A DNA stretch of 64,000 bases from Oceanimonas aquatica (GTDB lineage Bacteria; Pseudomonadota; Gammaproteobacteria; Enterobacterales; Aeromonadaceae): NCBI RefSeq assembly GCF_030732065.1, contig NZ_JAVBHX010000002.1, positions 245,904 through 309,903 on the forward strand, given 5' to 3'. Under the pieces are notes generated by a model. It saw only the letters and a list, made by a program, of their open reading frames with translations, ran no database searches and had not been told where the DNA came from. The first letter of the stretch is position 1; each line of letters begins with the position of its first letter. Both the position numbers and the translations under genes were made by a program. Shown piece by piece: positions 23,413 to 43,378 of the stretch.

Positions 23413-23440
23413 GAATTAAGATCCAGCGTGGCTATCACAC

Positions 23441-23466: not shown

Positions 23467-23470
23467 CTAT

Positions 23471-26338: not shown

Positions 26339-27879
26339 GCCTTTTCTCCTCCCTGGCGCTGAAAGTCCTCGGGGAACAGGGTGAGCGCACTTTTCACCGG
26401 GAACGGCGTCATGCCGCCCATGGCGCACAGTGAGCCCTGCATCATGGTGTCGCACAGATCGTCAAGCAGGGCCAGGTTGGCGTCGCGATTATCGTTGTTG
26501 ATAATGCGATCGATCACCTCCACCCCGCGCACCGCGCCAATACGGCAGGGCGTGCACTTGCCGCAGGACTCCTCGGCGCAAAATTCCATGGAAAACCGGG
26601 CCTGTTCGGCCATGTCGACGCTGTCATCAAACACCACCACGCCACCGTGGCCGAGCACGGCGCCGATGGCGGCAAAGGCTTCATAATCAAGCGGCGTGTC
26701 GAGCTGGGCCTCGGACAGGTAGGCACCCAGCGGGCCACCCACCTGCACCGAGCGCAGAGGCCGGCCACTGGCGGTGCCGCCACCAAAGTCTTCAATCAGC
26801 TCTCGCAGGGTATGGCCAAAGGGCAATTCCACCAGCCCCCCTTGAGCAATGTTGCCGGCCAGCTGGAATGGCAGTGTGCCCCGGGAGCGCTCCATGCCGA
26901 AACCGGCATAATGCTCGGGGCCGTCGCTCAGAATGGACGGCACCGCCGCCAGGCTGAGTACGTTGTTAACCACGGTGGGCTGACCAAACAGGCCCTCGAT
27001 GGCCGGCAGCGGCGGCTTGGCGCGCACCATGCCACGCTTGCCTTCCAGGCTTTCGAGCAGGGAGGTTTCCTCGCCGCAAATGTAGGCGCCGGCGCCCAGG
27101 CGCACTTCCAGTGCAAAATCGCGGCCGCTGTTCAGTAAATTGGTGCCGAGAAAGCCGGCGGCCTCGGCCCGGGCAATGGCCTGCTCCAGGCGCTCCTGGG
27201 CCAGGGGATATTCCTCGCGCAGGTAGATGTAGCCCTGGGTCGCGCCCACGGCAAGCCCGGCTATGGTCATGCCTTCAATCAGCATGTAGGGATCGCATTC
27301 CATCACCAGCCGGTCGGCAAAGGTGCCGGAGTCGCCTTCATCGGCGTTGCAGACGATGTATTTCTGCGCGCCTTTGGCGTCGAGCACCGTCTGCCACTTG
27401 ATGCCGGTGGGAAAGGCCGCCCCGCCCCGGCCACGCAGGCCGGAAGCCTTGACCTGATCCACCAGCTGCTGAGGAGTGCAGTCCAGCGCCCGCTTCAGGC
27501 CGTCAAAACCGCCGGTGGCCTGGTAGTCGAGCAACGACAGCGGATCGGTCACGCCCAGGCGGGCAAAGGTCACCCGCTGCTGACGCTGAAGATAGGCAAT
27601 CTCCTCGGTCGGCCCCAGGGCCAGGGGATGGTCGTCGCCAAAGTCGTGTTCAAATAGCGAGGCCACATCACCGGCTTCGACCGGGCCAAAGGCACGGCGG
27701 CCGCGACCGTCATCCACTTCCACCAGGGGCTCCAGCCAGAACAGGCCCCGGGAGCCGTTACGCACCAGCTCAATGCTGATGCCGCGGGCATCGGCTTCGC
27801 GCTTTATCAGGGTGGCCACATCGTCGGCGCCCACCGACAGCGCCGTGGTTTCGCTCGGAACAAAAATACGCAGGGTCAT
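26335..27879 (-). CDS. fdsB: NAD-dependent formate dehydrogenase, diaphorase subunit FdsB
   Basis: The 514-aa protein has an N-terminal thioredoxin-like [2Fe-2S]-type region and then a NuoF-like NADH/FMN domain (GLRGRGGAAFPTGIKW, CNADEGDSGTFADR). A SLBB domain and the C-terminal [4Fe-4S] site CAEESCGKCTPCRIG follow. It is the NAD-reducing module of the soluble formate dehydrogenase. Its start overlaps or abuts the fdsG stop at 27879. Confidence 0.94.
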   Translation of the reverse strand: MTLRIFVPSETTALSVGADDVATLIKREADARGISIELVRNGSRGLFWLEPLVEVDDGRGRRAFGPVEAGDVASLFEHDFGDDHPLALGPTEEIAYLQRQQRVTFARLGVTDPLSLLDYQATGGFDGLKRALDCTPQQLVDQVKASGLRGRGGAAFPTGIKWQTVLDAKGAQKYIVCNADEGDSGTFADRLVMECDPYMLIEGMTIAGLAVGATQGYIYLREEYPLAQERLEQAIARAEAAGFLGTNLLNSGRDFALEVRLGAGAYICGEETSLLESLEGKRGMVRAKPPLPAIEGLFGQPTVVNNVLSLAAVPSILSDGPEHYAGFGMERSRGTLPFQLAGNIAQGGLVELPFGHTLRELIEDFGGGTASGRPLRSVQVGGPLGAYLSEAQLDTPLDYEAFAAIGAVLGHGGVVVFDDSVDMAEQARFSMEFCAEESCGKCTPCRIGAVRGVEVIDRIINNDNRDANLALLDDLCDTMMQGSLCAMGGMTPFPVKSALTLFPEDFQRQGGEKA

Positions 27880-28370
27880 TATTTCAGCTCCAGCTTGTAG
27901 GTGGCGAGTTCATCCACCAGTTGATCGAAGCGGGCCGGCGTGGTGCGACTCTTGATGCACTTGCCCACCCGTACCGAGGGCCCGGTGGCGCAGTTGCCCA
28001 GGCAGTACACCGGCTTGAGGGTGATGTTGCGATCCGCCGTGGTCTGGCCATAGTCGATGCCCAGTCTGGCCTTGGCGTGGGCTTCCAGCTCCCGGGCGCC
28101 CCGGGCCTGACAGGCCTCGGCCCGGCACACTTCCACCACATGGCGGCCCGGCTGCTCGGAGCGGAAATAATGATAAAAACTCACCACCCCGTGCACGTCG
28201 GCGGCGGTAATGCGCAATGCCTTGGCGATAACGGGAATGGCGTCGTCGGGAATGTAACCCAGCTCGTCCTGAATACCATGCAGCATAGGCAGCAGCGCCC
28301 CCGGCTGGTGCCGAAGGGACGCCACGATACGCTCGATGGCGTGCATCCCTTTCACCTGTTTCTCATCCAT
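27879..28370 (-). CDS. fdsG: NAD-dependent formate dehydrogenase, gamma subunit FdsG
   Basis: The NuoE-like [2Fe-2S] subunit of 163 aa has the motif CRAEACQARGA and later YCLGNCATGPSV. The start at 28370 (MDEKQVKGM) is preferred because AGGTGG lies eight bases upstream. An ATG nine codons earlier falls inside the arm of a strong hairpin. It is the first gene of fdsGBA. The accessory fdsC (fdhD-like) and fdsD genes are not in the window. Confidence 0.92.
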   Translation of the reverse strand: MDEKQVKGMHAIERIVASLRHQPGALLPMLHGIQDELGYIPDDAIPVIAKALRITAADVHGVVSFYHYFRSEQPGRHVVEVCRAEACQARGARELEAHAKARLGIDYGQTTADRNITLKPVYCLGNCATGPSVRVGKCIKSRTTPARFDQLVDELATYKLELK

Positions 28371-28394
28371 TAGAAAGTCCACCTCATTAACGAT

Positions 28395-28423
28395 CATGGC
28401 GGCGGCCTGTTGCCGCCGCCATG
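28395..28423 (-). promoter_or_regulatory. Strong hairpin between fdhA and fdsG
   Basis: A perfect 12-bp inverted repeat CATGGCGGCGGC / GCCGCCGCCATG with a 5-nt loop has no T-run on the minus strand. It could be a processing or stability element, an attenuator, or a factor-assisted end of the fdhA transcript. Confidence 0.5.
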
Positions 28424-28479
28424 ATGGGGTCAGTGCCGCCAGTCATCCTGGCCGGCTATATCATCTTCAACCCTATCCC

Positions 28480-29679
28480 TCACGCGGGAATCATGCCATG
28501 GGGGTCGATCACAAATTTGCGGGCCACACCACCGTCAAAGTCGGCATACCCCTGCACCGACTCATCCAGGGTAATCACCTTCACGTTCACGGCCTTGGCG
28601 ATGTCGATCTTGTCGAACAGAATGGCCTGCATCAGCTGGCGGTGATACTTCATCACCGGGCACTGACCGGTGTGCAGAGAGTGGGACTTGGCCCAGCCCA
28701 GGCCAAAGCGCATGCTGAGCGCGCCTTCACGGGCCGCTTCGTCTACCGCGCCCGGATCTTCGGTCACATACAGGCCGGGAATGCCAATCTGGCCGCCGGC
28801 GCGGGTGATTTGCATGGCCGAGTTGAGCACGGTGGCCGGCGCTTCCTTGCCATGGTTGCAGCCACAGGCATGGGCCTCGAAGCCGACGCAGTCGACAAAG
28901 GCATCCACTTCCCGCTCGCCCAGAATGACTTCCAGCTTGTCTTCCATCGAGCCCTCTTCGCGCAGATCGATGGTCTCGCAGCCAAAGCTGCGAGCCTGGG
29001 CCAGGCGTTCCGGGTTCATGTCGCCCACGATCACACAGGCCGCCCCCAGCAACTGGGCCGAGGCGGCGGCCGCCAGACCCACCGGGCCGGCACCGGCGAT
29101 ATACACGGTGGAGCCCGGGCCCACGCCGGCGGTGACACAGCCGTGGAAACCGGTGGGGAAAATGTCGGAGAGCAGGGTGAGATCGCGAATTTTTTCCAGC
29201 GCCTGATCCGGGTCCGGGAACTTCAGCAGGTTGAAGTCGGCATAAGGCACCATCACGTATTCGGACTGGCCGCCGACCCAGCCGCCCATGTCGACGTAAC
29301 CGTAGGCGGCGCCGGGACGGGCCGGGTTGACGTTCAGGCAGATGCCGGTCTTGCCTTCCTTGCAGTTGCGGCAGCGGCCGCAGGCAATGTTAAAGGGCAC
29401 GGAGACGATGTCGCCCACCTTGAGGAACTCCACGTCCCGGCCGCATTCGATGATCTGGCCGGTGATCTCGTGGCCCAGCACCAGGCCTGACGGCGCCGTG
29501 GTGCGCCCGCGTACCATGTGCTGATCGCTGCCGCAGATGTTGGTGGACACCACCTTGAGGATCACGCCGTGATGGCAGGCCCGCTTGCCCAGGGACAGCT
29601 CGGGAAAGGCAATGGACTGTACCTCGACCTTGCCGGGCCCGGTGTAGACCACGCCTCTGTTACCGTGTATTGCGCACAT
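28480..29679 (-). CDS. fdhA: Glutathione-independent formaldehyde dehydrogenase
   Basis: The 399-aa zinc alcohol dehydrogenase family protein has catalytic zinc ligands Cys49 and His70. The structural zinc is held by Cys100, 103, 106 and 114, with the Rossmann fold motif GAGPVGLAAAA. This spacing is that of Pseudomonas putida formaldehyde dehydrogenase, which oxidises formaldehyde to formate using tightly bound NAD. It lies directly upstream of the formate dehydrogenase genes, so formaldehyde from betaine demethylation can be oxidised in two steps. AAGGA lies nine bases before the ATG. Confidence 0.93.
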   Translation of the reverse strand: MCAIHGNRGVVYTGPGKVEVQSIAFPELSLGKRACHHGVILKVVSTNICGSDQHMVRGRTTAPSGLVLGHEITGQIIECGRDVEFLKVGDIVSVPFNIACGRCRNCKEGKTGICLNVNPARPGAAYGYVDMGGWVGGQSEYVMVPYADFNLLKFPDPDQALEKIRDLTLLSDIFPTGFHGCVTAGVGPGSTVYIAGAGPVGLAAAASAQLLGAACVIVGDMNPERLAQARSFGCETIDLREEGSMEDKLEVILGEREVDAFVDCVGFEAHACGCNHGKEAPATVLNSAMQITRAGGQIGIPGLYVTEDPGAVDEAAREGALSMRFGLGWAKSHSLHTGQCPVMKYHRQLMQAILFDKIDIAKAVNVKVITLDESVQGYADFDGGVARKFVIDPHGMIPA

Positions 29680-29849: not shown

Positions 29850-29934
29850 GCGGGGTTCGGTGCGGGTCTGCAGACAATGCAGGGGGTTAAGGATAGTGCT
29901 ACATGCCCTGGATGCCCGTCTTCACGGGCATGAC
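29850..29934 (+). repeat. Partial palindromic-end repeat, copy 8
   Basis: It has the internal GCGGGTCTGCAGACAATGC of the short class and a full right end (CTGGATGCCCG...GGGCATGAC); the left hairpin is missing or degenerate. Confidence 0.6.
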
Positions 29935-29947
29935 GGCGGCGTTTTCC

Positions 29948-30049
29948 GTCACCCCCGCCGCAGGCGGGGGTCCAGTGCGGGTCTGCAGACAATGCTGGGG
30001 ATTGAGACCCGTGCTCCATGTTCTGGATCTCCGCCTTCGCGGGAATGAC
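29948..30049 (+). repeat. Short palindromic-end repeat element, copy 9 (short class)
   Basis: The element is 102 bp, GTCACCCCCGCCGCAGGCGG... to ...GCGGGAATGAC, with internal GCGGGTCTGCAGACAATGC shared with copies 2 and 8. Confidence 0.8.
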
Positions 30050-30082: not shown

Positions 30083-31939
30083 TCAGGCAGACCGCCGCAC
30101 TATGGTGCCCCTATCGCCCACGGCGTAGACGGTGCCGTCCCGAGCGGCGCACACGGCGCGCAGGCCGGCCTCGGTGGGGGCGGTTTCACGCAGCCACTGG
30201 CCCTGCTCCAGCCTGAGCACCGTGCCCCGTCCGCCCACGGCAAACACGCCACCGGTGTCGTTGCCGGAGATCGACAACAAATCCTGCTGCAGCCGGGTGG
30301 GCATGGTGTGCCAGCGCTGGCCGTTGAAATGCACCACTGTGCCCGACAGGCCCACGGCGTAGATGTCGTTCAGTCCCCGGCCCCAGACGCTGTAAATAAA
30401 CTGCTCGGTGCCGGTGTTGAATTCTTTCCATTCCTTGCCGTTGTAGCGCAACGCCAGGCCGAAGTCGCCCACCGCCAGCAGGTGCTCGGCATCCAGGCCC
30501 CAGAGATCGTAGAGTGCTGACGTGGTGCCGCTAGCCATCCGCTGCCAGCCCAGGCCGTCGTAATGCAGCACCAGTCCCTCGTCGCCCACCGCATAAATGC
30601 AGTCGGGCCCGGTGCCCCACATCGCCAGTATGGTGGTGTGCAGGTGCAGATCGAAGTGAAGCTGCCACTGCTCGCCATTGAAGCGATAAATGCGCCCTTC
30701 CTGGCCGCCGGCCAGCAGGCCGCTGCCTTCACAGCTCCATAAACAGTGCACCGCCAGTTGCTCATCGGGCGCCGGCAGCGCCACCCACTGCTCGCCGTCC
30801 AGCCGCAGCACGGTGCCAACATCGCCGCAGGCATACATTTGGCCATCGTGGGCCTGCCACAGTCCCCACAGCTGACGCTGGGTGGGGCTTGCCATGGTTT
30901 CCCACCGGCTTTGCGCCGCCACTTCCCGGTGAGGAATGGCCAGCGCCTTTTCAAAGTCGGGCGCGGCGGTCATCAGGGTACCGAAGTCCCCCACCACCAG
31001 CGCCTCGCCGGAGCCCAGGGTAACGATGTCCATCAGATCGTGATGGGTGTTGCAGGCCAGCCTGTGCACCTTGTTGTTGTGCAGATACAGCAGGTGGCCC
31101 TTGTCGCCCACCAGCAGCACGCCGTCCTTGTAGGCACGCAGGGCCCTGAGCCGCGGCAGCCCCGCCTCGTGGGCCAGGTTGTGAAACTCGCCGTGGCGGT
31201 AATGCACCAGTTCGCCGCGAAAGCCGCCCTGATCCACAAAGTAACGCCCGCCTGCCAGCAGCAGCTCGTCGTCGTTCAGCACCAGCAGGGCATGAAAACC
31301 GGTACTTAAGGGGCAATCCATCGGTTGCCATTCACCATTCACGTCCCGGCACAGCAGGGTACCTTCGCCGCCGGCGGCATAGACCCGGCCGTTTGGTGCA
31401 CAGGCCACTGCCCGCAGGTTGATGCGAGTGCCCGAGGCCTCAGACTGCCAGCCCTCGCCGTTAAAATGCAGAATGCGGCCGTCGTCGCCCACCGCCCAGG
31501 CCTCGCCGGCCGTGTTGCCGTCGATGGCAAACAGCGGTGTGTTTTCCTCGCAGGAGGCGTAGCGACCGGTGTCATCGTTGACCACACCGCCCTGCACTCG
31601 CCGCCACTGCTCGCCGTCGTAATGCAGAATGCAGCCCATCCAGCCCACCGCGTGCAGACTGTCGGTCTGGTTGCCCCAGATACCGTGCAGGGGCAGCGGT
31701 ACCGGCGTGGCCTGCTCGTGCCAGCCCGGCTGGTCGGCGTTGAAGTGCAGAATGCGGCCCTCGTCGCCCACCACGAACACTTCGCCCGCTCCGGCCCAGC
31801 CGGACCAGAGCACGTCGCCATCGCCGGCATGGGCTTCCAGCACCGGGTGCCAGGGGGTGCCCACCGGCGTGGCCGCTTCTACCCGGCTGGCCAGCTGGCG
31901 AAAAAAATGCCGGCGGGAAGGGTTGTGTACTGAGCTCAT
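30083..31939 (-). CDS. Protein of about 14 beta-propeller-type repeats, last gene of molybdoenzyme operon 1
   Basis: The 618-aa protein consists of about 14 repeats of roughly 40 residues with the core (Y/W)AVG-x-x-G-x-(I/V)LH-(F/Y)-(N/D)G-x-x-W. This is enough for two seven-bladed propellers; the middle repeats (5 and 7) are irregular. The N-terminus has SRRHFFRQLASR, a twin-arginine-like pair, but no hydrophobic stretch follows, so export is doubtful and a cytoplasmic role is more likely. It starts 22 bp after the ATPase gene and is clearly part of the same operon. I know no function; a scaffold for enzyme assembly is a guess. Confidence 0.75.
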   Translation of the reverse strand: MSSVHNPSRRHFFRQLASRVEAATPVGTPWHPVLEAHAGDGDVLWSGWAGAGEVFVVGDEGRILHFNADQPGWHEQATPVPLPLHGIWGNQTDSLHAVGWMGCILHYDGEQWRRVQGGVVNDDTGRYASCEENTPLFAIDGNTAGEAWAVGDDGRILHFNGEGWQSEASGTRINLRAVACAPNGRVYAAGGEGTLLCRDVNGEWQPMDCPLSTGFHALLVLNDDELLLAGGRYFVDQGGFRGELVHYRHGEFHNLAHEAGLPRLRALRAYKDGVLLVGDKGHLLYLHNNKVHRLACNTHHDLMDIVTLGSGEALVVGDFGTLMTAAPDFEKALAIPHREVAAQSRWETMASPTQRQLWGLWQAHDGQMYACGDVGTVLRLDGEQWVALPAPDEQLAVHCLWSCEGSGLLAGGQEGRIYRFNGEQWQLHFDLHLHTTILAMWGTGPDCIYAVGDEGLVLHYDGLGWQRMASGTTSALYDLWGLDAEHLLAVGDFGLALRYNGKEWKEFNTGTEQFIYSVWGRGLNDIYAVGLSGTVVHFNGQRWHTMPTRLQQDLLSISGNDTGGVFAVGGRGTVLRLEQGQWLRETAPTEAGLRAVCAARDGTVYAVGDRGTIVRRSA

Positions 31940-31961
31940 GGCGCTCTCCTCATAACAGTGA

Positions 31962-33065
31962 TTAGCGATCGTTTTTCAGCCGGGCGCGCTCGCCGGCAAG
32001 CAGCGCTTCAAGGTCGCGCCGGGCCTGGTCCCTGTCTTCCTCGGGCAGGTCGTTGAGCATGGCTTCCAGATCGTCGGTATCGGCCACCATCACCGCCTGC
32101 AGCTCCTCGGTGGCGGCCTCAACACTGACTTTCCGGGCATGGTCAATACAGGCGTCCACCGCCGGTGCAAAGGCTTTCGCCTCGGGGCTGTCGGGCTGGT
32201 CCATGGTGAGCGGGGCGCCCGAGTCAGAGGCCGTGGCCAGCAGCGGCGACAACGGAATGCTGGCCAATGATTCCACCCCCAGCTCATCCAGCGCCTCGGC
32301 CAGGTGAGCCCGTGGGAACAACTGAAACTCGCCGCCGCAATGAGGGCAGGTCACCCCGGCCATGTTTTCCACCACGCCGATCAGCGGCAGGCCGCGCTCC
32401 TGGCAGAAGCGGATGGCCTTGAGGCTGTCCATCAGTGCCACTTGCTGGGGGGTGGTGGCAATCACCGCCGCCACCGCCTGCTGCTCCAGCAGATCGCTCA
32501 GGGTGATCAGCTCATTGCCGGTGCCCGGGGGCATGTCGACCACCAGAAAATCCAGCGGGCCCCAGTCAAAGCTGCCTATCAGGTGATGCATAAAGTCGTG
32601 CTTGTAGGCGTCGCGCCAGACGATGGGGGTGTCATCCCGCTGCATCATAAAGGCCAGCGAGCCCACCTTGACCGGATGCGGCAGCCGATCGCCGAAGCTC
32701 TCAAGGGTATCCAGGCCGCGCTCGCTGACCCGCACCCGCTGACCCACCTGGTCGAAAAAACGGCTCTGGTTGGGACCATGAATATCCGCATCGGCCACGC
32801 CTACGCGGAAGCCCCGTGCGGCCAGACCGGCGGCCAGGTTGGCCGAGACGGTGCTTTTACCCACGCCGCCCTTGTTGGCCATGACCAGAATGATCTGGCC
32901 AATGTCGGCCAGCCGGCGCTGCAGCAACCGCTGCTCGTGGTGGGGCTTGTCCAGGGTGCACTCCGGCTCTTTGGGGCAAAACTGGCAGGCATGGCCCCGG
33001 CCGCAGTCGGCCGGGCGCACGGCCAGGTCGTCGTCCTGGCCGGCATTAAATTGGTTTACCGTCAT
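31962..33065 (-). CDS. Mrp/Nbp35-like P-loop ATPase (Fe-S carrier type)
   Basis: The 367-aa protein has the deviant Walker A NKGGVGKS (64-71), the switch and Walker B region FLVVDMPPGTGNE, and a CPHCGG motif for a bridging [4Fe-4S] cluster. This is the layout of Mrp/ApbC/Nbp35 scaffold proteins. The N-terminus adds four cysteines (21, 27, 30, 36; C-x5-C-x2-C-x5-C), resembling the N-terminal cluster site of Nbp35. An acidic and basic C-terminal tail of about 80 residues follows. It lies 22 bp after the gamma-subunit gene. A role in delivering clusters to the five-cluster molybdoenzyme is inferred. Confidence 0.82.
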   Translation of the reverse strand: MTVNQFNAGQDDDLAVRPADCGRGHACQFCPKEPECTLDKPHHEQRLLQRRLADIGQIILVMANKGGVGKSTVSANLAAGLAARGFRVGVADADIHGPNQSRFFDQVGQRVRVSERGLDTLESFGDRLPHPVKVGSLAFMMQRDDTPIVWRDAYKHDFMHHLIGSFDWGPLDFLVVDMPPGTGNELITLSDLLEQQAVAAVIATTPQQVALMDSLKAIRFCQERGLPLIGVVENMAGVTCPHCGGEFQLFPRAHLAEALDELGVESLASIPLSPLLATASDSGAPLTMDQPDSPEAKAFAPAVDACIDHARKVSVEAATEELQAVMVADTDDLEAMLNDLPEEDRDQARRDLEALLAGERARLKNDR

Positions 33066-33087
33066 GATGAACTCCTCCCCTTGAGTA

Positions 33088-33870
33088 TCAGTGGCTGTTG
33101 TCCAGCAGGATCCAGTTGGGGGTTACCCGTTTGTCACCGTCACGCTGGTTGTGGTGGCCTTCCCAGACCGCGAACACCACGGGGATCTGAGCCCGGTCCA
33201 GATCGACCTGGTGCTTACCCTTGACCTCAAGCGGCCGGGACATCACCACATGCCACTCGCTGTCCTGCTGAATTTCTTCCGCCACCCAGGCACTGGCACC
33301 GTCAATCAGCTGATCCGGCAGGCGGGTGGTGCTGCCGTAACCGCCGGCGGCCAGATCTTCAATCTGCTCCCGATCCGCGCGCCAGTACCAGATATTGACC
33401 GGCTTGTCCGGGCCCGAGCCCATCATGTAGGAGGTGTCGGCGCCTTCGAGGGCAAACTGCACCGCCACGCCATCACGAAAGTCGTCTACCGTGGTGGCTC
33501 TGTCTTCGGTGCCGTCCTTCCAGCGTAGCCGCAGGTAAAACCGTTCGTCGGAGCGGGCCACCTGAAAATACATGTGCTTGGCCTCATAGGCCTGGTCCTG
33601 TTCAAAACGCAGCTTGACCGACTGATGCACCGGCGGGGCCGGATACAGACCAACGCGGTACATGGGCAGGCGGTCCCAGATCAGATCATCCGGATCATTC
33701 TGAGTGCGCAAATAGATGGTACCGGGAATGCGTGCCACCTTGACGGTATCGCCCGGCTGCACCTCGGTAACGTTGGGGTTCATCTCGCTGTGATCGGCCA
33801 GGGCGGTACCGGCCGTGGTCATGGCCAGTCCCAGCAGCATGGCCCGGTAAATGGACGTCATCGCTTTCAT
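33088..33870 (-). CDS. Type II molybdoenzyme gamma subunit (heme b), operon 1
   Basis: The 260-aa protein has a Sec signal (AMLLGLAMTTAGTALA, cleavage about residue 24). The ethylbenzene-dehydrogenase-type heme-binding domain has SYMMGSGPDKPVNIWYWRA, which contains a candidate Met ligand, and a Lys-rich segment further on. In DdhC/SerC/ClrC/EbdC this periplasmic subunit carries one heme b. The start MKAMTSIY at 33870 has GAGGA seven bases upstream and follows the chaperone gene by 13 bp. Confidence 0.87.
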   Translation of the reverse strand: MKAMTSIYRAMLLGLAMTTAGTALADHSEMNPNVTEVQPGDTVKVARIPGTIYLRTQNDPDDLIWDRLPMYRVGLYPAPPVHQSVKLRFEQDQAYEAKHMYFQVARSDERFYLRLRWKDGTEDRATTVDDFRDGVAVQFALEGADTSYMMGSGPDKPVNIWYWRADREQIEDLAAGGYGSTTRLPDQLIDGASAWVAEEIQQDSEWHVVMSRPLEVKGKHQVDLDRAQIPVVFAVWEGHHNQRDGDKRVTPNWILLDNSH

Positions 33871-33883
33871 TCTATGTTCCTCA

Positions 33884-34603
33884 TTATTCCCACATGCCTT
33901 CGGAATTGCCGGTCGCGGCGCGCTGGCCCGGTTGCGGACAGGGGCCAACCTGGTGCTCCAGCAACTCGCACTGGCGGGCGGCCCAGTCGGGCAGACGCTG
34001 CACCAGGCAGGCCAGGTTGGCGTCCAGGCCCTGGTCGGCTTCCCGGTTAAAGCGCTCACGCACAGCGCTTGCCATCGGCACCAGATAGCGGGTCAGAAAG
34101 TCCCGCAGTGCCCGCCGGGGCGAACCGACATCTCCCCCGCTTTCAAGCGCCTGCTGCTCCAGATGGCACAGCAGGGCGCAGAATTCGAGCATGGTGACCA
34201 GGTGATCCGGCTCGTCGATATGGCCTTCGTCATCGGTGGCGGCCTTGAGGCCGAAATGCCGGTAAAAGGCCTGTACGTTGAGCAGGTAACGGCCCGGGGT
34301 GTCGCCGGCCAGCAGCTGTTCGTAGGCGCTGGCCACCAGCGGCACATGGGGCCGGCCACGCCGGCCATGTACAAAGGTGGCCATGTAGCCCACTTCCAGC
34401 GCCTGCAGGTCACTGCTTGCCGGCAGGGCGGGCCAGGCGGGCTCGCCCTGTATCGCCATGGCCTGACTCAGCACCTGTGCCATGCGACCTTCGCGCAGGG
34501 CCTGCTGGGTTTCGGCCAGCGGGTAGTCCAGCATGGCGGCGGCCAGCCGGAACACGGTGCCCCGGGCCTGAACCTGGTCGGCGGTAACGGATTGGGTGTT
34601 CAT
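33884..34603 (-). CDS. TorD/DmsD-family chaperone of the molybdoenzyme, operon 1
   Basis: The 239-aa all-helical redox enzyme maturation protein of the TorD/NarJ group has the core E-x-x-x-P-D-H-L pattern as DEPDHLVTMLEFCALLCH. By analogy with DdhD/SerD/ClrD it would bind the Tat leader of the A subunit and help insert the cofactor. Only operon 1 has this gene, so it may serve both enzymes. Its first eight codons (MNTQSVTA) reappear at the start of the gamma gene in operon 2. Confidence 0.85.
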   Translation of the reverse strand: MNTQSVTADQVQARGTVFRLAAAMLDYPLAETQQALREGRMAQVLSQAMAIQGEPAWPALPASSDLQALEVGYMATFVHGRRGRPHVPLVASAYEQLLAGDTPGRYLLNVQAFYRHFGLKAATDDEGHIDEPDHLVTMLEFCALLCHLEQQALESGGDVGSPRRALRDFLTRYLVPMASAVRERFNREADQGLDANLACLVQRLPDWAARQCELLEHQVGPCPQPGQRAATGNSEGMWE

Positions 34604-34617
34604 GGGTAACCTCTCTC

Positions 34618-35598
34618 TCAGCTCAGCTTGAACATGTCAGCATGGTTATAGCCGATCAGCAGATCCATCAGCGCGCTCTCGCGGCCTTCGGCCTTGGCCT
34701 GGCGCTCGGTCTTGAGTGTTTCCAGCACCTCGCCCACCCGGGGGCCGAACAGGCTTTCCAGGTAGTCCAGCGGAATGCGCGGCTCTTCCAGAGTGCGGCC
34801 ATCGGAGCCGTATTTGGGCGACGACAGCGGCGGCACGTAGAATACATTGGGCTGGGTGCCCCACTCGGCGTGCAGCGGCAATGCCACCTTGAATTGCTCC
34901 ACCAGCTTGTGAATGGGACCTTCCTTGTCGTCCCGGTAGCCGACCCAGCGAATGCGACCCACACACTGACGGGCACAGGCGTTGGCCAGGCCTTTTTCGA
35001 TACGCGGATAACAGAAGATGCACTTCTCCGACTTGGAGATCTGCTCGTTGAAATACACCTTCTTGTAGGGGCAGGCGTTCACGCAATAGCGGTAACCGCG
35101 GCAGCGCTCCTGATCCACCAGCACAATGCCGTCTTCCTGGCGCTTGTAGATGGCGTTGCGGGTACAGGCCGCCAGGCAGCCCGGGTTGGCGCAGTGGTTA
35201 CACAGCCGCGGCAGATAGAAGTAGTAGCTGTTGGGGTAGTCCCCCTCGCCTCTGTCTTCGTCCCAGTTGGCGCCCCAGGTGGGTTTGACGTTGGGACGCA
35301 GCCAGGGATCGGTGCCGGTCATCAGCGCTTCTTCATAGTTGTATTCCCAGGGAATACCGTAGTCTTCCTGGCTGGGCTGGCGGCCCAGGCGCAGGGCGCC
35401 ATCCTTGTCGAAACCGCCGCCCATGTTCTGGTAGTCGCGGGGGTAGCCCAGCCCGGGCTGGGACTCCACGTTATTCCAGTACATGAATTCGCGGCCGTTG
35501 CGGTTGGTCCACATCAGCTTGCAGGCTGAGGTACAGGTCTGGCATCCGATGCACTTGTTCAGGTCCAGCACCATGCTGAGTTGGCGTTTGACAGCCAT
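34618..35598 (-). CDS. Type II molybdoenzyme beta subunit (four Fe-S clusters), operon 1
   Basis: The 326-aa ferredoxin-like subunit has four cysteine groups, at CIGCQTCTSAC, CNHCANPGCLAAC, CRGYRYCVNACPYKKVYFN and CIFCYPR...CARQC. This matches the NarH/DdhB/SerB/EbdB pattern of three [4Fe-4S] and one [3Fe-4S] cluster. It has no signal peptide, since it travels folded with the A subunit through Tat. Spacing is 13 bp after A and 14 bp before the chaperone gene. Confidence 0.92.
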   Translation of the reverse strand: MAVKRQLSMVLDLNKCIGCQTCTSACKLMWTNRNGREFMYWNNVESQPGLGYPRDYQNMGGGFDKDGALRLGRQPSQEDYGIPWEYNYEEALMTGTDPWLRPNVKPTWGANWDEDRGEGDYPNSYYFYLPRLCNHCANPGCLAACTRNAIYKRQEDGIVLVDQERCRGYRYCVNACPYKKVYFNEQISKSEKCIFCYPRIEKGLANACARQCVGRIRWVGYRDDKEGPIHKLVEQFKVALPLHAEWGTQPNVFYVPPLSSPKYGSDGRTLEEPRIPLDYLESLFGPRVGEVLETLKTERQAKAEGRESALMDLLIGYNHADMFKLS

Positions 35599-35610
35599 GG
35601 CAATCTCCTC

Positions 35611-38379
35611 TTAAACGGTCCGCGGGTCGGCGATGTCTTCCGGCTTGGCCAGCTCGATGTCGAAGCTGGATTCGTGCAGTAACTGGTTGGCGTTCCACAT
35701 GCAGTATTTGAAGCCCAGGTGACCCCAGCCGCCCACCAGTTCCAGCGGCTGCAGGAAGGTAGCCATGGAGTTGTTCATCGGCTTCTTGTGAATGTACTGA
35801 TGGGGCTCCCAGCCGTGCTCCATCATGATGGAATGCTTGGGAATGCTGGGGTAGAACTTGGCCTGGGCGAAAAAGTCGCCGGTGCCGTTGAACAGCCGCA
35901 CCCGGTCGCCGTCCTTGATGCCCCGCTCTGCTGCCAGCCCGGGGTTGATATAGATGTTGGGCTCGCCCCGTTGCAGCCGCAGCAGATACTTGTTGCTGCG
36001 CCAGTTGGAGTGCACACCCCAGCGGGCATGGGGCGAATAGAAGTGCAGCGGGTAGTTCGACGCCTCGGGGCCGGCATAAAGCCGGGCCGTGGGCACGGTG
36101 GCACCCAGCTTCATAAAGCGCGGGTGATCACAGTAGAAGGTGATGCGCCCGGTCAGGGTGTCGTAAGGCTTTTTGCCGTCGGTCTGGGCGGTGAACGGGT
36201 TGTAGGGCTCATCGGGTTTGAGCGGCTGGTTGGTGCCGGCGTGCTCGTTCATCACGATAAAGCCGCGTTCCACCGCCTCTTTCACGCTGACGCCGCCAAA
36301 CTCCGGCGAGTTCTCCACGATATAGGTGAACACGTCGAGATCGGTGTTGAGGGTACCGTTGCGGGTGAAGTCATCGTGAATGGTGTGCAGATCCCGGGTG
36401 ACATCACCGTCCTGAATGGGACCGACGCCCCGGGCGATGGCGCGCTCCTGAATCTTTTTGGTGAGCAGCGCCATGATGTCCCAGTCGGGCTTGGACTCGC
36501 CCACCGGCCGGACCGAACGGGTAAAGACGTTACAGAAGCGGTGATAGCCCTGAGTACGCAGATCCCAGCTCTCGTAATGGCCCGCCGCCGGCAGCACATA
36601 GTCGGCCCACTCGGCGGTGGAGTCCATGCGCACGTTCACGTTGACATAGAGCTCGCTGGCCTGGCGCAGGTGCTCGTCGCGGTAACGGTTGGCGAACTTG
36701 TTGCGGCGGAAGGTATTGTCGGCCACCGAGATCATGCCCTTGATCTCGCCGTGATACGGCATCCAGCCTTCGTCGATGGACTCCTTGATCATGGCGTCCA
36801 GGTCGTCGAGATCGAAGCCAACCCGCTCCTTGAGCTTCTTATTGTTGAAGTGCTCGCGGGCGCCTTCCATCATGCCGCCGCGCAGAAACTCGCCCAGACC
36901 ACCGGGCTCGTAGCGAGGCTTCTTGTCGCCGAACTCGGACAGCTCTGCCCATTTCGGGTGATTCCACACCACCCAGGAAGTGTCGAGGCCGCCGGTGCGG
37001 CCACAGTGGCCGGTGAGCGACAGCGCCAGCCCGTAGGCCCGGCCGATATGAATGCAGTTGGAATAGCCGGAGGTAATGTAACCCAGCATGACGATGGCCT
37101 TGCGGGCCTTGGCCAGGTAGCGGGCTTCCTGGCGCACCACGTCCGGGTGAATATTGGTGAGTTCAAAGGTGTCTTCCGGGCGGTATTTGGCCGCTTCCAG
37201 CTTTACCTGCTCAAACACTGTGGTGACCTTGATGCCGTCCACCTCAAACTCGCCCTCAATGGCCGGGTCGACGTTGCCGAGCTTCAGGGTCTTGTCATCA
37301 CTGCCCATGGAGCCCTTGGCCTTGACCGCCTGCTTGGTGTTCATGTCCCAGTGATAGAACACTTCATCGGAGCCCCCTTCCACCAGATCGGCCTCGCGCA
37401 GCAGCTTGCCGTTGTCACGGCGCACCAGCATGGGCAGATCGGTCTGCTCCTTCATAAAGTCAGGCTTGAACAGTTTTTCCTCGATAATGACGTTTACAAA
37501 CGACATGGCAAGGAAGGGATCCGAGCCCTGGTTGATGGGCATCCACAAGTCGGTGTGCACGGCACTGGTGTTGTGATCCGGGGCGGTGCTGGTAATGCGG
37601 GCGCCGTTGTACTTGGCCTCCCAGATATAGTGGGCATCGGGAATACGGGTGGCGTTGGGGTTGATCATGCCCATCAGAATATAATCGGCATCAAACCAGG
37701 CATCGGAGGTGAAGCTTTCCAATGGGTTGCCGTAGGTCAGATGAGCACCGGTATTGAGATCGCCCACCACGGTGAAACCGTCGAGCTGAATGCCGCCCAC
37801 CAGCGACGAGAAGCGGTTGGGACCGGAGTGACGCACCATGGTCTGGTTGCCGGAGCCCTGGTGGGTCTTGAGTTTGCCGGGGCCGTACTTGACGAAAATA
37901 TCGATGATCTTGTCAGCGATTTCCTCGGTCGCCTGATCCCAGGAAATGCGCTGCCACTTGCCCTCGCCGCGCTCGCCGGCCCGCTTGAGCGGATAGCGCA
38001 GCCGGTCGGCTTCGTACATGGCGGTGGAGTGAATGGCGCCCTTCTGGCAGCCACGGGGGTTGGCATCGGGCACATTCGGGTTGACCTGGGGATACTTGGC
38101 GATCTGCTCTTCGCGGACCACCAGGCCATCCTTGACGTAGACGTTCCAGGCGCAGTTGCCCATGCAGTTGATGCAGTGGGCGGCGTGGCCGATGTAATCC
38201 CAGTCCCATTCCTTGCGGTACAGGTCTTCCCAACTGCGGTAGGGATATTCGGTGGCGAGAGTGTCTGAGATGGGCTCCAGACGGTTGAGCGCCCAGCTTT
38301 TACTGCTTATCACGAGGCCGGCCCCGGTCAGGCCCAGCCCCTTGAGAAAGTCGCGGCGCTTGAGTGTAGACAATTGCAT
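35611..38379 (-). CDS. Type II DMSO-reductase-family molybdopterin oxidoreductase, A subunit, operon 1
   Basis: The 922-aa protein has a twin-arginine leader (LKRRDFLKGLGLTGAG, Arg8-Arg9). The FS0 cluster motif is His68-x3-Cys72-x3-Cys76 plus Cys111, and the molybdenum ligand is the Asp at position 207 in VVGDLNTGAH. His in the first ligand position and Asp on Mo define the type II group (NarG, DdhA, SerA, ClrA, EbdA). The periplasmic location and A-B-D-C order fit the ddh/ser/clr branch rather than NarG. The substrate cannot be read from sequence. The start at 38379 has AGGAGG eight bases upstream; an FNR box lies about 130 bp upstream. Confidence 0.9.
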   Translation of the reverse strand: MQLSTLKRRDFLKGLGLTGAGLVISSKSWALNRLEPISDTLATEYPYRSWEDLYRKEWDWDYIGHAAHCINCMGNCAWNVYVKDGLVVREEQIAKYPQVNPNVPDANPRGCQKGAIHSTAMYEADRLRYPLKRAGERGEGKWQRISWDQATEEIADKIIDIFVKYGPGKLKTHQGSGNQTMVRHSGPNRFSSLVGGIQLDGFTVVGDLNTGAHLTYGNPLESFTSDAWFDADYILMGMINPNATRIPDAHYIWEAKYNGARITSTAPDHNTSAVHTDLWMPINQGSDPFLAMSFVNVIIEEKLFKPDFMKEQTDLPMLVRRDNGKLLREADLVEGGSDEVFYHWDMNTKQAVKAKGSMGSDDKTLKLGNVDPAIEGEFEVDGIKVTTVFEQVKLEAAKYRPEDTFELTNIHPDVVRQEARYLAKARKAIVMLGYITSGYSNCIHIGRAYGLALSLTGHCGRTGGLDTSWVVWNHPKWAELSEFGDKKPRYEPGGLGEFLRGGMMEGAREHFNNKKLKERVGFDLDDLDAMIKESIDEGWMPYHGEIKGMISVADNTFRRNKFANRYRDEHLRQASELYVNVNVRMDSTAEWADYVLPAAGHYESWDLRTQGYHRFCNVFTRSVRPVGESKPDWDIMALLTKKIQERAIARGVGPIQDGDVTRDLHTIHDDFTRNGTLNTDLDVFTYIVENSPEFGGVSVKEAVERGFIVMNEHAGTNQPLKPDEPYNPFTAQTDGKKPYDTLTGRITFYCDHPRFMKLGATVPTARLYAGPEASNYPLHFYSPHARWGVHSNWRSNKYLLRLQRGEPNIYINPGLAAERGIKDGDRVRLFNGTGDFFAQAKFYPSIPKHSIMMEHGWEPHQYIHKKPMNNSMATFLQPLELVGGWGHLGFKYCMWNANQLLHESSFDIELAKPEDIADPRTV

Positions 38380-38508: not shown

Positions 38509-38522
38509 TTGATGCAGATCAA
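38509..38522 (-). promoter_or_regulatory. FNR box upstream of molybdoenzyme operon 1
   Basis: TTGAT-GCAG-ATCAA is a perfect match to the FNR/ANR consensus TTGAT-N4-ATCAA and identical in its central four bases to the box before operon 2. It predicts activation without oxygen. Downstream on the minus strand AACTAAAGT aligns with AACTAAACT of operon 2. Confidence 0.85.
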
Positions 38523-39613: not shown

Positions 39614-40594
39614 TCAGCTCAGCTTGAACATCTCGGCGTGGTTGTAGCCGATCAGCAGATCCATCAGGGCGCTCTCGCGTCCTTCCGCCTTGGCCTGGCG
39701 CTCGCTCTTGAGGGTGTCGAGCACCTCGCCCACCCGCGGCCCAAACAGGCTTTCCAGATACGCCAGCGGAATGCGCGACTCTTCCAGTACGTCACCGTCG
39801 GGGCCGTATTTGGGCGGCGACAGCGGCGGCACATAGAACACATTGGGCTGAGTGCCCCACTCGGCGTGCAGTGGCAGTGCCACCTTGAATTGCTCCACCA
39901 GCTGGTGAATGGGGCCGTCCTCGTCGTCCAGGTAGCCAATCCAGCGAATGCGGCCCACACACTGGCGGGCACAGGCGGTGGCCAGGCCCTTTTCGATACG
40001 CGGGTAGCAGAAGATGCATTTCTCCGACTTGGAGATCTGCTCGTTGAAGTACACCTTCTTGTAGGGGCAGGCGTTCACACAGTAGCGGTAACCCCGGCAG
40101 CGCTCCTGATCCACCAGCACAATGCCGTCTTCCTGACGCTTGTAGATGGCGTTACGGGTACAGGCCGCCAGACAGCCCGGATTGGAGCAATGGTTGCACA
40201 GCCGCGGCAGGTAGAAGTAATAGCTGTTGGGATAGTCACCCAGGCCTTCGTCTTCGTCCCAGTTGGCGCCCCAGGTGGGTTTGACGTTGGGGCGCAGCCA
40301 GGGGTCGGTGCCGGTCATCAGCGCTTCTTCGTAGTTGTATTCCCAGGGAATGCCGTAGTCTTCCTGGCTGGGCTGACGGCCCATGCGCAGGGCACCGTCG
40401 GCATCAAAGCCACCCCCCATGTTCTGATAATCGCGGGGGTAGCCCTTGCCCGGCATGGTTTCCACATTGTTCCAGTACATGAACTCGCGGCCATTGCGGT
40501 TGGTCCACATCAGCTTGCAGGCCGAGGTACAGGTCTGACAGCCAATGCACTTGTTCAGATCCAGCACCATGCTGAGTTGTCTTTTTACAGCCAT
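39614..40594 (-). CDS. Type II molybdoenzyme beta subunit, operon 2
   Basis: The 326-aa protein is of the same length as the operon 1 beta subunit and nearly identical by eye, with all four cysteine groups (CIGCQTCTSAC, CNHCSNPGCLAAC, CRGYRYCVNAC, CIFCYPR) intact. It follows A2 by 12 bp and precedes the fused gamma gene by 14 bp. Changes cluster in the C-terminal third. Confidence 0.92.
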   Translation of the reverse strand: MAVKRQLSMVLDLNKCIGCQTCTSACKLMWTNRNGREFMYWNNVETMPGKGYPRDYQNMGGGFDADGALRMGRQPSQEDYGIPWEYNYEEALMTGTDPWLRPNVKPTWGANWDEDEGLGDYPNSYYFYLPRLCNHCSNPGCLAACTRNAIYKRQEDGIVLVDQERCRGYRYCVNACPYKKVYFNEQISKSEKCIFCYPRIEKGLATACARQCVGRIRWIGYLDDEDGPIHQLVEQFKVALPLHAEWGTQPNVFYVPPLSPPKYGPDGDVLEESRIPLAYLESLFGPRVGEVLDTLKSERQAKAEGRESALMDLLIGYNHAEMFKLS

Positions 40595-40606: not shown

Positions 40607-43378
40607 TTAGATGGCCCTTGGGTCACTGATTTCATCGGGTTTGGCCAGCGCAATGTCATAGCTGCTTTCGTGGATCGTCTGGTTGGCGTTCCATTTGGCA
40701 TAGATGAACTTCAGATGGCCCCAGCCCCCCACCAGCTCCAGCGGGTGCAGCAGGGTGGCGTGCGAGTTGTTCATGGGCTTGCGATGTATGTACTGATGCG
40801 GCTCCCAGCCGTGCTCCATCATGATGGAGTTGACCGGAAGGCTGGGGTAGAACTTGGCCTGAGCGAAGAACTCGCCGTTGTCGTTAAACAGCTTGACCCG
40901 GTCGCCGTCCTTGATGCCCCGCTCCGCCGCCAGTTTGGGATTGATGTAAATATTGGGCTCACCCCGCTGCAGCCGCAGCATGTACTTGTTGCTGCGCCAG
41001 TTGGAGTGAATGCCCCAGCGGGTGTGCGGCGAGTAGAAGTGCAGCGGATAGTTGGACGCTTCCGGGCCGGCATAAAGCCGGGCCGTGGGCACGGTGGACT
41101 TGAGCTTGACGAAACGCGGATGGTCGACGTAGAAGGTGATGCGCCCGGTCAGGGTTTCGTAAGGCTTTTTACCGTCGGTCTGGGCGGTGAACGGATTATA
41201 AGGCTCATCGGGTTTGAGCGGCTGGTTCAGGCCGGCATGCTCGTTCATCACGATAAAGCCGCGCTCGGCCGCCTCTTCCAGGGTAACACCGCCAAATTCG
41301 GGCGAATTGTCGACGATATAGCGGCAGGCATCCAGGGCGGTATTGAGCTTGCCGTTCATGGTGTAGTCGTCGTGAATGGTGTGCAGATCCCGGGTGACGT
41401 CACCGTCCTGAATCGGGCCTATGTTCCGGGCGATGGCGCGCTCCTGAATCTTTTGGGTAAGCAAGGCCATGATGTCCCAGTCGGGCTTGGACTCGCCCAC
41501 CGGGGGCACCGACTCGGTAAACACGTTGCAGAAGCGGTGATAGCCCTGCGTACGCAGATCCCAGGCCTCGTAGTGGCTTGCCGCCGGCAGCACATAGTCG
41601 GCCCACTCGGCGGTGGAGTCCATGCGCACATTGACGTTCACATACAGCTCACTGGCCTGGCGCAGGTGCTCATCCCGGTAGTGCTCGGCCAGCTTGTTAC
41701 GGCGGAAGGTGTTGTCGGCAATGGAGATCATGCCCTTGATCTCGCCGTAATAGGGCATCCAGCCCTCGTCGATGGACTCCTGCATCATGGCTTCCATCTC
41801 GTCCACATCAAAACCGACCCGCTCCTTGAGCTTCTTGTTGTCGAAGTGCCGGCGAATGCCGTCCATCATGTCGCCGCGCAGCACCTCACCCAGGCCACCC
41901 GGCTCGTAACGGGCCGATTTCTTGCCGTCAAAGGTGGCCAGTTCGGTCCATTTGGGGTGATTCCACACCACCCAGGAGGTATCCAGGCCGCCGGTGCGGC
42001 CGCCGTGACCGGTGAGCGCCAGCGCCAGGGCATAGCCCCAGCCGATATAGAGGCAGTTGGAGTAGCTGGAGGTGATGTACCCCAGCATGATGATGGCCTT
42101 GCGGGAAGCGGCCAGGTGGCGGGCTTCCTGACGCACCACATTGGGGTGCAGGCCGGTTTGCTCTTGCGTGCTTTCCGGCGGATATTTGGCCGCCTCCAGC
42201 TTTACCTGCTCAAACACGGTGGTGACCTTGACCCCGTCGACCTCAAACTCCCCTTCCAGGGCCGGATCCACCTCGCCCAGTTTCAGGTCTTTTTCCTCAC
42301 TGCCCATGGAGCCCTTGGCCTTGACCGCGCTGTTGCTGTTCAAATCCCAGTGATAGAAGACCTCATCGGAGCCGCCTTCCACCAGGTCGGCCTCGCGCAG
42401 CAGCTTGCCGTTGTCCTGCCGAACCAGCATAGGCAGGTCGGTCTGCTCCTTCATAAAGGCCGGCTTGTACAGCTTTTCCTCGATGATGACGTTGACGAAC
42501 GATAACGCCAGAAAGGGGTCCGAGCCCTGCTGAATGGGCATCCACAAGTCGGTGTGAATGGAGCTGGGGTTGTAATCCGGGGCGGTGCTGATAATGCGTG
42601 CACCATTGTACTTGGCCTCCCAGATGTAGTGGGCATCGGGAATACGGGTGGCGTTGGGGTTGATCATGCCGAGCATGATGTAGTCGGCATCAAACCAGGC
42701 ATCGGAGGTAAAGCTTTCCAACGGGTTGCCGTAAGCCAGGTGCGCACCTGTACTGAGGTCCCCCACCACGGTAAAGCCGTCGAGCTGAATGCCGCCCACC
42801 AAAGAGGCAAAGCGGTTGGGGCCGGACTGGCGTACCATGGTCTGGTTGCCCGAGCCCTGGTGGGTTTTCAGCTTGCCGGGACCGTATTTGACGAAAATAT
42901 CGATGATCTTGTCGGCGATTTCTTCGGTAGCCTGATCCCAGGAAATGCGCTGCCACTTGCCCTCGCCCCGCTCGCCGGCTCGCTTGAGGGGATAGCGCAG
43001 CCGATCGGCCTCATACATGGCGGTGGAGTGAATGGCGCCCTTCTGACAACCCCGGGGGTTGGCATCGGGCACCCTGGGGTTGACCTGCGGGTATTTGGCG
43101 ACCTGCTCTTCGCGGATCACCAGGCCGTCTTTTACGTAGACGTCCCAGGCGCAGTTACCCATGCAGTTGATGCAGTGGGCGGCGTGGCCGATATGATCCC
43201 AGTCCCACTCCTTGCGGTACAGATCTTCCCAGCTGCGGTAGGGATAATCTGTGGCAAGGGGATCGGAAATGGGCTCGAGCCGGTTAAGCGCCCAGCCCTG
43301 CGGGCTGAACACCAGGCCGGCCCCGGTCAGGCCCAGCCCCTTGAGAAAGTCGCGGCGCTTGAGTTTAGACAATGACAT
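40607..43378 (-). CDS. Type II DMSO-reductase-family molybdopterin oxidoreductase, A subunit, operon 2
   Basis: The 923-aa paralogue of the operon 1 A subunit has the Tat leader LKRRDFLKGLGLTGAG, FS0 ligands His68, Cys72, Cys76 and Cys111, and the Asp at position 207 in VVGDLSTGAH. It is the same length within one residue and collinear throughout. The AGGAGG before the ATG and even the sequence around it are the same as in operon 1. The most divergent stretch is about residues 375-420, between the cofactor domains. Whether the two enzymes differ in substrate is unknown. Confidence 0.9.
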   Translation of the reverse strand: MSLSKLKRRDFLKGLGLTGAGLVFSPQGWALNRLEPISDPLATDYPYRSWEDLYRKEWDWDHIGHAAHCINCMGNCAWDVYVKDGLVIREEQVAKYPQVNPRVPDANPRGCQKGAIHSTAMYEADRLRYPLKRAGERGEGKWQRISWDQATEEIADKIIDIFVKYGPGKLKTHQGSGNQTMVRQSGPNRFASLVGGIQLDGFTVVGDLSTGAHLAYGNPLESFTSDAWFDADYIMLGMINPNATRIPDAHYIWEAKYNGARIISTAPDYNPSSIHTDLWMPIQQGSDPFLALSFVNVIIEEKLYKPAFMKEQTDLPMLVRQDNGKLLREADLVEGGSDEVFYHWDLNSNSAVKAKGSMGSEEKDLKLGEVDPALEGEFEVDGVKVTTVFEQVKLEAAKYPPESTQEQTGLHPNVVRQEARHLAASRKAIIMLGYITSSYSNCLYIGWGYALALALTGHGGRTGGLDTSWVVWNHPKWTELATFDGKKSARYEPGGLGEVLRGDMMDGIRRHFDNKKLKERVGFDVDEMEAMMQESIDEGWMPYYGEIKGMISIADNTFRRNKLAEHYRDEHLRQASELYVNVNVRMDSTAEWADYVLPAASHYEAWDLRTQGYHRFCNVFTESVPPVGESKPDWDIMALLTQKIQERAIARNIGPIQDGDVTRDLHTIHDDYTMNGKLNTALDACRYIVDNSPEFGGVTLEEAAERGFIVMNEHAGLNQPLKPDEPYNPFTAQTDGKKPYETLTGRITFYVDHPRFVKLKSTVPTARLYAGPEASNYPLHFYSPHTRWGIHSNWRSNKYMLRLQRGEPNIYINPKLAAERGIKDGDRVKLFNDNGEFFAQAKFYPSLPVNSIMMEHGWEPHQYIHRKPMNNSHATLLHPLELVGGWGHLKFIYAKWNANQTIHESSYDIALAKPDEISDPRAI

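Follow-up and report, generated by a model that had tools for sequence, protein, structure and literature searches.

This report describes a predicted six-gene operon in a stretch of 64,000 nucleotides from Oceanimonas aquatica (NCBI RefSeq assembly GCF_030732065.1, contig NZ_JAVBHX010000002.1, positions 245,904 to 309,903 of the forward strand), to which we refer as a whole, and with its own numbering, as the window. The operon runs on the minus strand from 38379 to 30083 in the order A1-B1-D-C1-MRP-PROP, in which A, B, and C encode a molybdoenzyme of the type II dimethyl sulfoxide (DMSO) reductase family, D a putative chaperone, MRP an Nbp35/Mrp-type P-loop ATPase, and PROP a predicted double beta-propeller. 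Judging from the sequences, we consider it fairly probable that MRP and PROP (with D) form a client-specific iron–sulfur (Fe-S) and assembly module for A-B-C. This reading is based on gene order, the family membership of A, B, C, and MRP, metal-binding motifs, strict co-occurrence, and co-divergence, and further on the joint loss of D, MRP, and PROP from the window's second copy and the lack of an export-type hydrophobic core in PROP. An earlier annotation of this DNA (the original prediction) had already suggested that the two extra genes make up a dedicated assembly module, a suggestion that gains support here since both travel with the enzyme.

The Enzyme and Its Operon

The six genes indeed lie where they had been predicted, namely A1 at 35611–38379, B1 at 34618–35598, D at 33884–34603, C1 at 33088–33870, MRP at 31962–33065, and PROP at 30083–31939, all on the minus strand. 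The gaps between them measure 12 (A1-B1), 14 (B1-D), 13 (D-C1), 22 (C1-MRP), and 22 bp (MRP-PROP), the last two as claimed earlier. No terminator was called within the two 22-bp gaps, and in promoter and terminator scans of the region sites were no more frequent than in shuffled sequence.

A-B-C is a type II DMSO reductase family molybdoenzyme. The catalytic molybdenum subunit A1 (TIGR03479, alpha; 1216.1 bits against a cut-off of 984.75), the Fe-S subunit B1 (TIGR03478, beta; 583 against 480.7), and the heme b subunit C1 (TIGR03477, gamma; 192.1 against 169.85) all score above the thresholds of their models. D is a NarJ/TorD-type chaperone by its match to PF02613 (62 bits); its best match is the family chaperone model TIGR03482, at 119.8 bits and thus below the cut-off of 152.3. 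A1 starts with a twin-arginine translocation (Tat) signal, KRRDFLKGLGL, and C1 has a signal-peptide-like start.

The metal ligands are well conserved. The FS0 ligands of A1 (H68, C72, C76, and C111) and its Mo-ligand aspartate D207 are unchanged in 7/7 aligned sequences. The alignment of A1 with PcrA is continuous, that with EbdA falls into two pieces, and that with NarG into four; counted along these alignments, D207 shares a column with the Mo ligands PcrA 170, EbdA 223, and residue 222 of the 1246-residue NarG chain. M150 and K247 of C are unchanged in 71/71 aligned segments (some from the same genomes) and match the Met/Lys ligation of heme b in EbdC. The loop before the Mo aspartate reads LDGFTVVGD in A1, PDATSMTGD in the Clr type, and FYDWYCD or FYDWYGD in the NarG/PcrA type.

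Within the family, the window enzyme belongs to an uncharacterised respiratory enzyme clade that is found largely in marine and saline genera; Halomonas, Marinobacter, Marinobacterium, and Oceanimonas offer named strains as hosts. The A tree has 95 rows with spans of at least 700 aa and comes from a quick IQ-TREE run with a long-branch warning, with the Shimodaira–Hasegawa-like approximate likelihood ratio test (SH-aLRT) as sole support measure and midpoint rooting for drawing. A1 and the second window copy, A2, fall inside a 43-row clade (SH-aLRT 100), whose sister on the midpoint rooting comprises 20 rows, among them the ClrA proteins of Ideonella and Alicycliphilus and the Sedimenticola selenatireducens enzyme. 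A1 does not fall inside the SerA/ClrA clade, being 44.6% identical and separately placed (SH-aLRT 100). The tree had been proposed with the original prediction, and the part involving ClrA could be carried through, setting A1 in a separate clade. A plasmid search for a close relative of A yielded five records, all below 60% identity.

Co-occurrence and Co-divergence

A profile scan of genome contigs with the A alignment, covering the best 80 of 108 relatives, gave 78 distinct loci, at which MRP and PROP were called present at E 1e-5. All 33 loci with an A of at least 54% identity (L068–L099 and L103) have the order A-B-D-C-MRP, and PROP comes next in 29 of them (in L072 as two broken pieces). 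Neither MRP nor PROP was detected at any of the 45 loci with an A of at most 46% identity, which comprise Ser/Clr-like and other loci, several cut by contig ends. The operon, kept in fixed order, couples the enzyme to an ATPase of its own and, at most of the gamma- and betaproteobacterial loci, to a double propeller as well. With start codons picked by script, there is a 4-bp overlap between MRP and PROP at six loci (L075, L086, L091, L095, L096, and L103).

Whole genomes were searched as well. For the Halomonas family, to which L070 (Halomonas alimentaria) belongs, 171 genomes were covered; 12 of them encode A (E <= 1e-150), and MRP (E <= 1e-60) and PROP (E <= 1e-30) turn up in these 12 and in no other, which corresponds to a Fisher value of 1e-18 if kinship is ignored. 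In the 61 relatives of the window genome, A, operon-type MRP, and PROP are likewise confined to one set of four genomes; L068, L069, and L088 are apparently the same genomes as G387, G371, and G377 and hence not independent of these relatives. A check that came with the original prediction, namely whether the extra genes are found mostly without the molybdoenzyme, was run in these 171 and 61 genomes and did not refute the linkage. TIGR03479 hits in six other genomes of the class have no MRP or PROP nearby, and one of these hits (L059) is a member of the clade.

When pairwise distances are compared across 29 shared loci (with L072 left out for its broken PROP), all 15 gene pairs correlate, and 0/999 permutations reach any of the observed values. 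The correlation is highest for MRP-PROP (Spearman 0.933), followed by B-PROP (0.901).

As a separate observation on the family, one Chloroflexota contig (L145, 85–12424) holds four type II alpha-like matches, the last one ended by the contig end.

The Second Gene Set and Tandem Copies

Just upstream of the operon lies a second set, A2-B2-C2 (43378–38811, minus strand), which had been left out of the original prediction. It consists of the catalytic subunit A2 (40607–43378; 85% identical to A1; TIGR03479, 1237 bits), the Fe-S subunit B2 (39614–40594; 93% identical to B1), and the heme b subunit C2 (38811–39599; 90% identical to C1), the latter two assigned by profile match and comparison, and it is devoid of D, MRP, and PROP. 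C2 opens with eight codons similar to those at the start of D, a pattern that would follow from a deletion joining the two genes and makes C2 an apparent D/C deletion fusion.

Tandem copies are also found in G377, with two complete six-gene operons, and in G387, whose second copy keeps A-B-D-C, with MRP cut to its first 74–89 residues and no second PROP. Within the genus, these arrays amount to deletion experiments carried out by nature. In both reduced ones A, B, and C are retained, PROP is missing, and little or nothing is left of MRP (in the window D is missing too), as would be expected of assembly factors acting in trans. Natural gene losses separate the enzyme genes from the assembly genes.

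The Propeller Protein

PROP (618 aa) matches the propeller model PF23366 with 31.7 bits (cut-off 27), with two other models staying below their cut-offs. An AlphaFold2 model built from 20 sequences (the window's and those of 19 of the 29 PROP loci) has a mean predicted local distance difference test (pLDDT) score of 87.0 and a predicted template modelling score of 0.53. It reads as two 7-bladed propellers, at about residues 30–328 and 346–618, of which the relative placing is uncertain. Modelling had been proposed earlier as a check, and the 14 blades counted from the model's strand pattern, in two groups of seven, fit the "about 14 repeats" read from the sequence at that time. No homology of PROP to Cia1 was found: a sequence search against PDB chains gave no match at E 0.1, and the fold matches are general double propellers such as AIP1, with template modelling scores below 0.4 over the whole length. 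Among 369 genomes of the class, the window genome is the only one with a full PROP match; 42 others have partial repeat matches (E 2e-36 to 6e-6), and the fetched DNA around the two best of these (L066, 4.4 kb only, and L067) contains no operon gene.

The N-terminus of PROP carries an Arg-Arg pair that is unchanged in 20/20 aligned sequences and is part of the motif RRHFF in the window. The pattern RRx[FL][FL] is present in 30 of 31 PROP sequences (29 loci plus two repeats of the same genomes), L072 with its broken frame being the exception. Many bacterial propellers are periplasmic, and with such a twin-arginine motif PROP might be exported by the Tat pathway and bind, once in the periplasm, to the mature enzyme or to its cytochrome, leaving maturation to MRP alone. 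We consider this unlikely for three reasons. First, the maximum hydropathy over 15 residues after the PROP Arg-Arg is 0.77, below the minimum of 0.93 among 37 A rows, meaning that the twin-arginine motif of a Tat substrate is present and its hydrophobic core is absent. Second, PROP co-diverges most with MRP, and an Mrp-type ATPase is expected in the cytoplasm. Third, PROP is gone from both reduced tandem copies, in which C is kept. The absence of a hydrophobic stretch after the Arg-Arg therefore argues for a cytoplasmic PROP with a signal-like tag.

The ATPase

MRP contains an Mrp/NBP35 domain (NUBPL P-loop, PF10609; 241 bits), a CXXC (C240-PH-C243), and the N-terminal motif C21-x5-C27-x2-C30-x5-C36, in which H25, F29, and P31 are constant as well. 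All six cysteines and the NKGGVGKST loop are unchanged in 21/21 aligned sequences (the window and 20 of the 33 clade loci). The N-terminal four-Cys motif and C240/C243 lend support to the Nbp35-like ATPase named in the original prediction. Compared with C-x13-C-x2-C-x5-C, the N-terminal cluster motif of Nbp35, the last two spacings fit and the first is shorter. The P-loop agrees in all but its first residue with GKGGhGK[ST], the deviant Walker A motif of Mrp/NBP35 proteins according to PMC6345978. A C-terminal helical tail spans residues 300–365 (model pLDDT 79.1).

The operon MRP stands apart from the general Mrp of the cell. Eight out of eight clade genomes encode both an operon MRP (E 3e-159 to 3e-195) and a separate general-type Mrp (E 2e-64 to 1e-58; one of these genes has an internal stop), and the window genome likewise has a general-type Mrp. 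In Sedimenticola, the ninth genome tested, only three weaker Mrp matches were obtained (E 3e-58 to 4e-49). One Thiorhodococcus metagenome-assembled genome has two operon-type MRPs, the second within another complete six-gene operon. Of 398 phylum-wide genomes, the window genome is the only one with an MRP at E <= 1e-75.

Instead of delivering Fe-S clusters, MRP and PROP could serve in Mo-cofactor insertion or in MinD-like membrane positioning, with the propeller as adaptor. MinD is among the fold matches of MRP, and MrpORP of Desulfovibrio is located at a cell pole (PMC6345978). The best matches in both fold and sequence are, however, iron–sulfur carriers, the closest solved relatives being AF_226/AF_2382-type nucleotide-binding proteins, Cfd1, and ApbC, and all six cysteines (C21, C27, C30, C36, C240, and C243) are invariant. 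Either of these roles in place of Fe-S delivery hence appears improbable to us, and a cluster-loading MRP within the assembly module is favored.

Another P-loop ATPase, with an N-terminal C-x3-C-x2-C-x5-C, was noticed in genome G120 (contig L149, 7819–8958), together with YCF48-like and transporter-like genes (named by eye); the two TIGR03479 genes of this genome are on other contigs.

Proposed Mechanism and Points Against It

As an assembly module for A-B-C, the genes could work as follows. A-B-C would be a Tat-exported periplasmic molybdoenzyme whose electron partner is probably a cytochrome of the c type. On the model of ethylbenzene dehydrogenase, its C may carry heme b and its Fe-S clusters may be split between A (one) and B (four), a count taken from PMC8840923. 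D, MRP, and PROP would remain in the cytoplasm and mature A-B ahead of export, with D holding the signal peptide of A and helping to insert the Mo cofactor. We infer that MRP would load the Fe-S clusters, that PROP would be the scaffold gathering MRP, D, and the apo-subunits, and that the RRxFF peptide of PROP would dock on D and the MRP tail on PROP. Consistent with the module, MRP is 359–387 aa long in 27 PROP-bearing loci and 311–317 aa in the four without PROP.

Several observations weigh against this assembly module. L095 and L096 have a PROP yet a short MRP (328–329 aa), and because of these two the link between tail and PROP had to be lowered from a rule to a correlation. PROP is missing from L087 (Rhodospira), L090, and L092 and is therefore dispensable for some enzymes of the clade; in L097 the contig ends about 0.6 kb after MRP, so no PROP is seen there either, and since L087 and L097 are the two alphaproteobacterial loci, none was seen in that class. 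In G120 (the genome of L059), the A, inside the clade at 57% identity, is found in an A-B-C set without D, MRP, or PROP nearby, and the matches to MRP from the genome as a whole (E 2e-44 and 3e-43) are of the strength seen with general Mrp proteins. Ser/Clr-type loci lack MRP and PROP, and why this clade would need both is unexplained. Conversely, G138, a genome without a TIGR03479 hit, encodes on a 4.4-kb contig a repeat protein that is 29% identical over PROP residues 53–614 and comes closest to PROP among the 369 class genomes after the window's own. Furthermore, the RRxFF of PROP could be a weak Tat signal after all, and common ancestry of the operon accounts for part of the co-divergence.

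That MRP and PROP are passengers of a mobile operon with no role for the enzyme is very improbable, for despite the patchy distribution (12/171 and 4/61 genomes) and a PROP missing from at least three clade loci, MRP is kept across gamma-, beta-, and alphaproteobacterial loci and PROP across gamma- and betaproteobacterial ones (classes according to the record names), down to 36–38% PROP identity, in fixed gene order and with overlapping stop and start codons in six loci.

Little is known of how bacteria deliver clusters to complex Fe-S/Mo enzymes that are exported folded, and in 2019 there was a single known target of a bacterial Mrp (PMC6345978). Here, the client is defined, the ATPase is dedicated to it, and most lineages add a candidate scaffold, which makes client-specific Fe-S targeting directly testable.

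Probable Regulation and Electron Partner

The perfect FNR box reported earlier was found again, as TTGATNNNNATCAA, at 38509–38522 on the minus strand, 143 to 130 bp upstream of A1. The suggestion of the original prediction that the enzyme may be an anaerobic reductase and not a dehydrogenase is based on this box. A motif scan places a second perfect FNR-type box upstream of A2 (43517–43530, minus strand), and both read TTGATGCAGATCAA on the window strand. In a scan limited to rows above 600 bits, 10/35 clade copies have a perfect box within 400 bp upstream of A, against 2/3500 shuffles, and the window's own genus contributes five of these ten; if one mismatch is allowed, the numbers become 14/35 and 52/3500. 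Upstream regions outside the clade also have them (perfect in 2/15, at most one mismatch in 6/15), and thus the box is not special to the clade. FNR-type control is likely for part of the clade, judging from these motifs. Divergent from A2 lies an open reading frame for a LysR-type regulator (43714–44682, plus strand; named by eye), and in the relative L055 the 5' region of this gene also precedes A1 (82% over 140 bp).

A cytochrome c is the likely electron partner of the enzyme. Ten of the 33 clade loci include a gene for a small one-heme cytochrome c, in eight of these at most 0.8 kb upstream of A according to a signal-and-motif scan, and L074 has a similar one; in L068, L069, and L088, from the window's genus, the same scan found none. 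In L090 and L092 a two-heme cytochrome c is encoded downstream. By eye, the genes downstream of MRP in these two loci are for this cytochrome, a histidine kinase, and a response regulator, and L091 and L097 share the regulator's cluster with them.

Other Features of the Window

Three further features deserve a brief mention. Two near-identical isochorismatase-type hydrolase genes (51593–52393 and 55481–56224) lie on either side of a TRAP transporter set, with hydantoinase-like genes adjacent (by eye). An apparent glycine-betaine/one-carbon oxidation island (12853–29679, also by eye) includes genes for an AraC-type regulator, BCCT and TRAP transporters, a Rieske oxygenase and its reductase, an NAD formate dehydrogenase, and a formaldehyde dehydrogenase. 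Finally, an interspersed intergenic repeat of about 40–100 bp, with some copies inverted, is present at 29852–30049, 12746–12830, 20092–20135, 23114–23413, 16502–16743, and 8530–8634.

Comparison with Known Systems

Among the papers listed by an open-access literature search, none describes this operon or the ATPase–propeller pairing. The nearest characterised relatives found are ClrABDC/SerABDC, with the same A-B-D-C gene order as the window operon and a ClrA that is 44.5–44.6% identical to A1. SerA is reported to be 83.6% identical to ClrA (PMC12724226), so Ser/Clr come closest to A1 among the characterised groups found, yet A1 is not one of them. ClrA differs from the window A in its separate tree clade and in the residues around the Mo-ligand aspartate, and, unlike the window operon, two clr records and related loci have no MRP and no PROP. 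The original prediction assumed that type II operons end with the gamma or chaperone gene; this does not hold generally, since clrABDC is followed by a cytochrome c gene and mobB and the haloarchaeal operons discussed below also run on.

MrpORP of Desulfovibrio is an Mrp/NBP35 carrier proposed for one metalloprotein complex (PMC6345978). It is the best NCBIfam match of MRP, yet with 243.6 bits against a cut-off of 450; the best stretch covers profile positions 2–265 of 365 only, and the Cys motif differs from that of MRP.

A similar arrangement is found in three plasmid-borne haloarchaeal operons (Haloferax, Halarchaeum, and Halomicrobium), which are 3/3 archaeal hits of the plasmid search. 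Their order is Rieske, cytochrome b, (a small gene in two of them), A, B, gamma, TorD-like, hypothetical, HEAT repeat, and P-loop NTPase. This type II operon is probably the nitrate reductase operon, an assignment that PMC8301774 fits. As in the window, A-B-gamma and a TorD-type chaperone are followed by a repeat protein and an Mrp-family ATPase in 3/3 cases. The repeat protein is, however, a HEAT protein instead of a propeller, the chaperone gene comes after gamma, and Rieske and cytochrome b genes precede A. The ATPase, 35–39% identical to MRP, combines FeS_assembly_P, NUBPL P-loop, and DUF2249 domains in 3/3 (Pfam). The haloarchaeal A proteins are 33–36% identical to A1, and the tree, which includes one of them, sets it far from the window clade. 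The haloarchaeal and bacterial modules were presumably recruited independently.

In eukaryotic cytosolic iron–sulfur assembly (CIA), Nbp35-Cfd1, the propeller Cia1, and the HEAT protein MMS19 take part in target delivery (PMC6006210). The window module resembles it in having an Nbp35-type ATPase with an N-terminal Fe-S site and a beta-propeller, and the HEAT protein of haloarchaea recalls MMS19. Cia2, in turn, is an FeS_assembly_P protein. The window module differs in being client-specific and located inside its client's operon and in that PROP is a double propeller; moreover, no sequence homology of PROP to Cia1 was found, so the likeness is one of working parts, not of membership. Tentatively, and with clearly more doubt than for the assembly module itself, one may ask whether prokaryotes have more than once built client-specific, CIA-like Fe-S targeting in respiratory molybdoenzyme operons. 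Under this joint and rather doubtful reading, the bacterial version would consist of an Nbp35-type ATPase and a double beta-propeller in a Cia1-like role, and the haloarchaeal version of an FeS_assembly_P-Mrp fusion and a HEAT protein in Cia2- and MMS19-like roles. The RRxFF of PROP would then be a signal-peptide mimic that, by competing for or docking on the NarJ-type chaperone, gates export until the Fe-S clusters are in.

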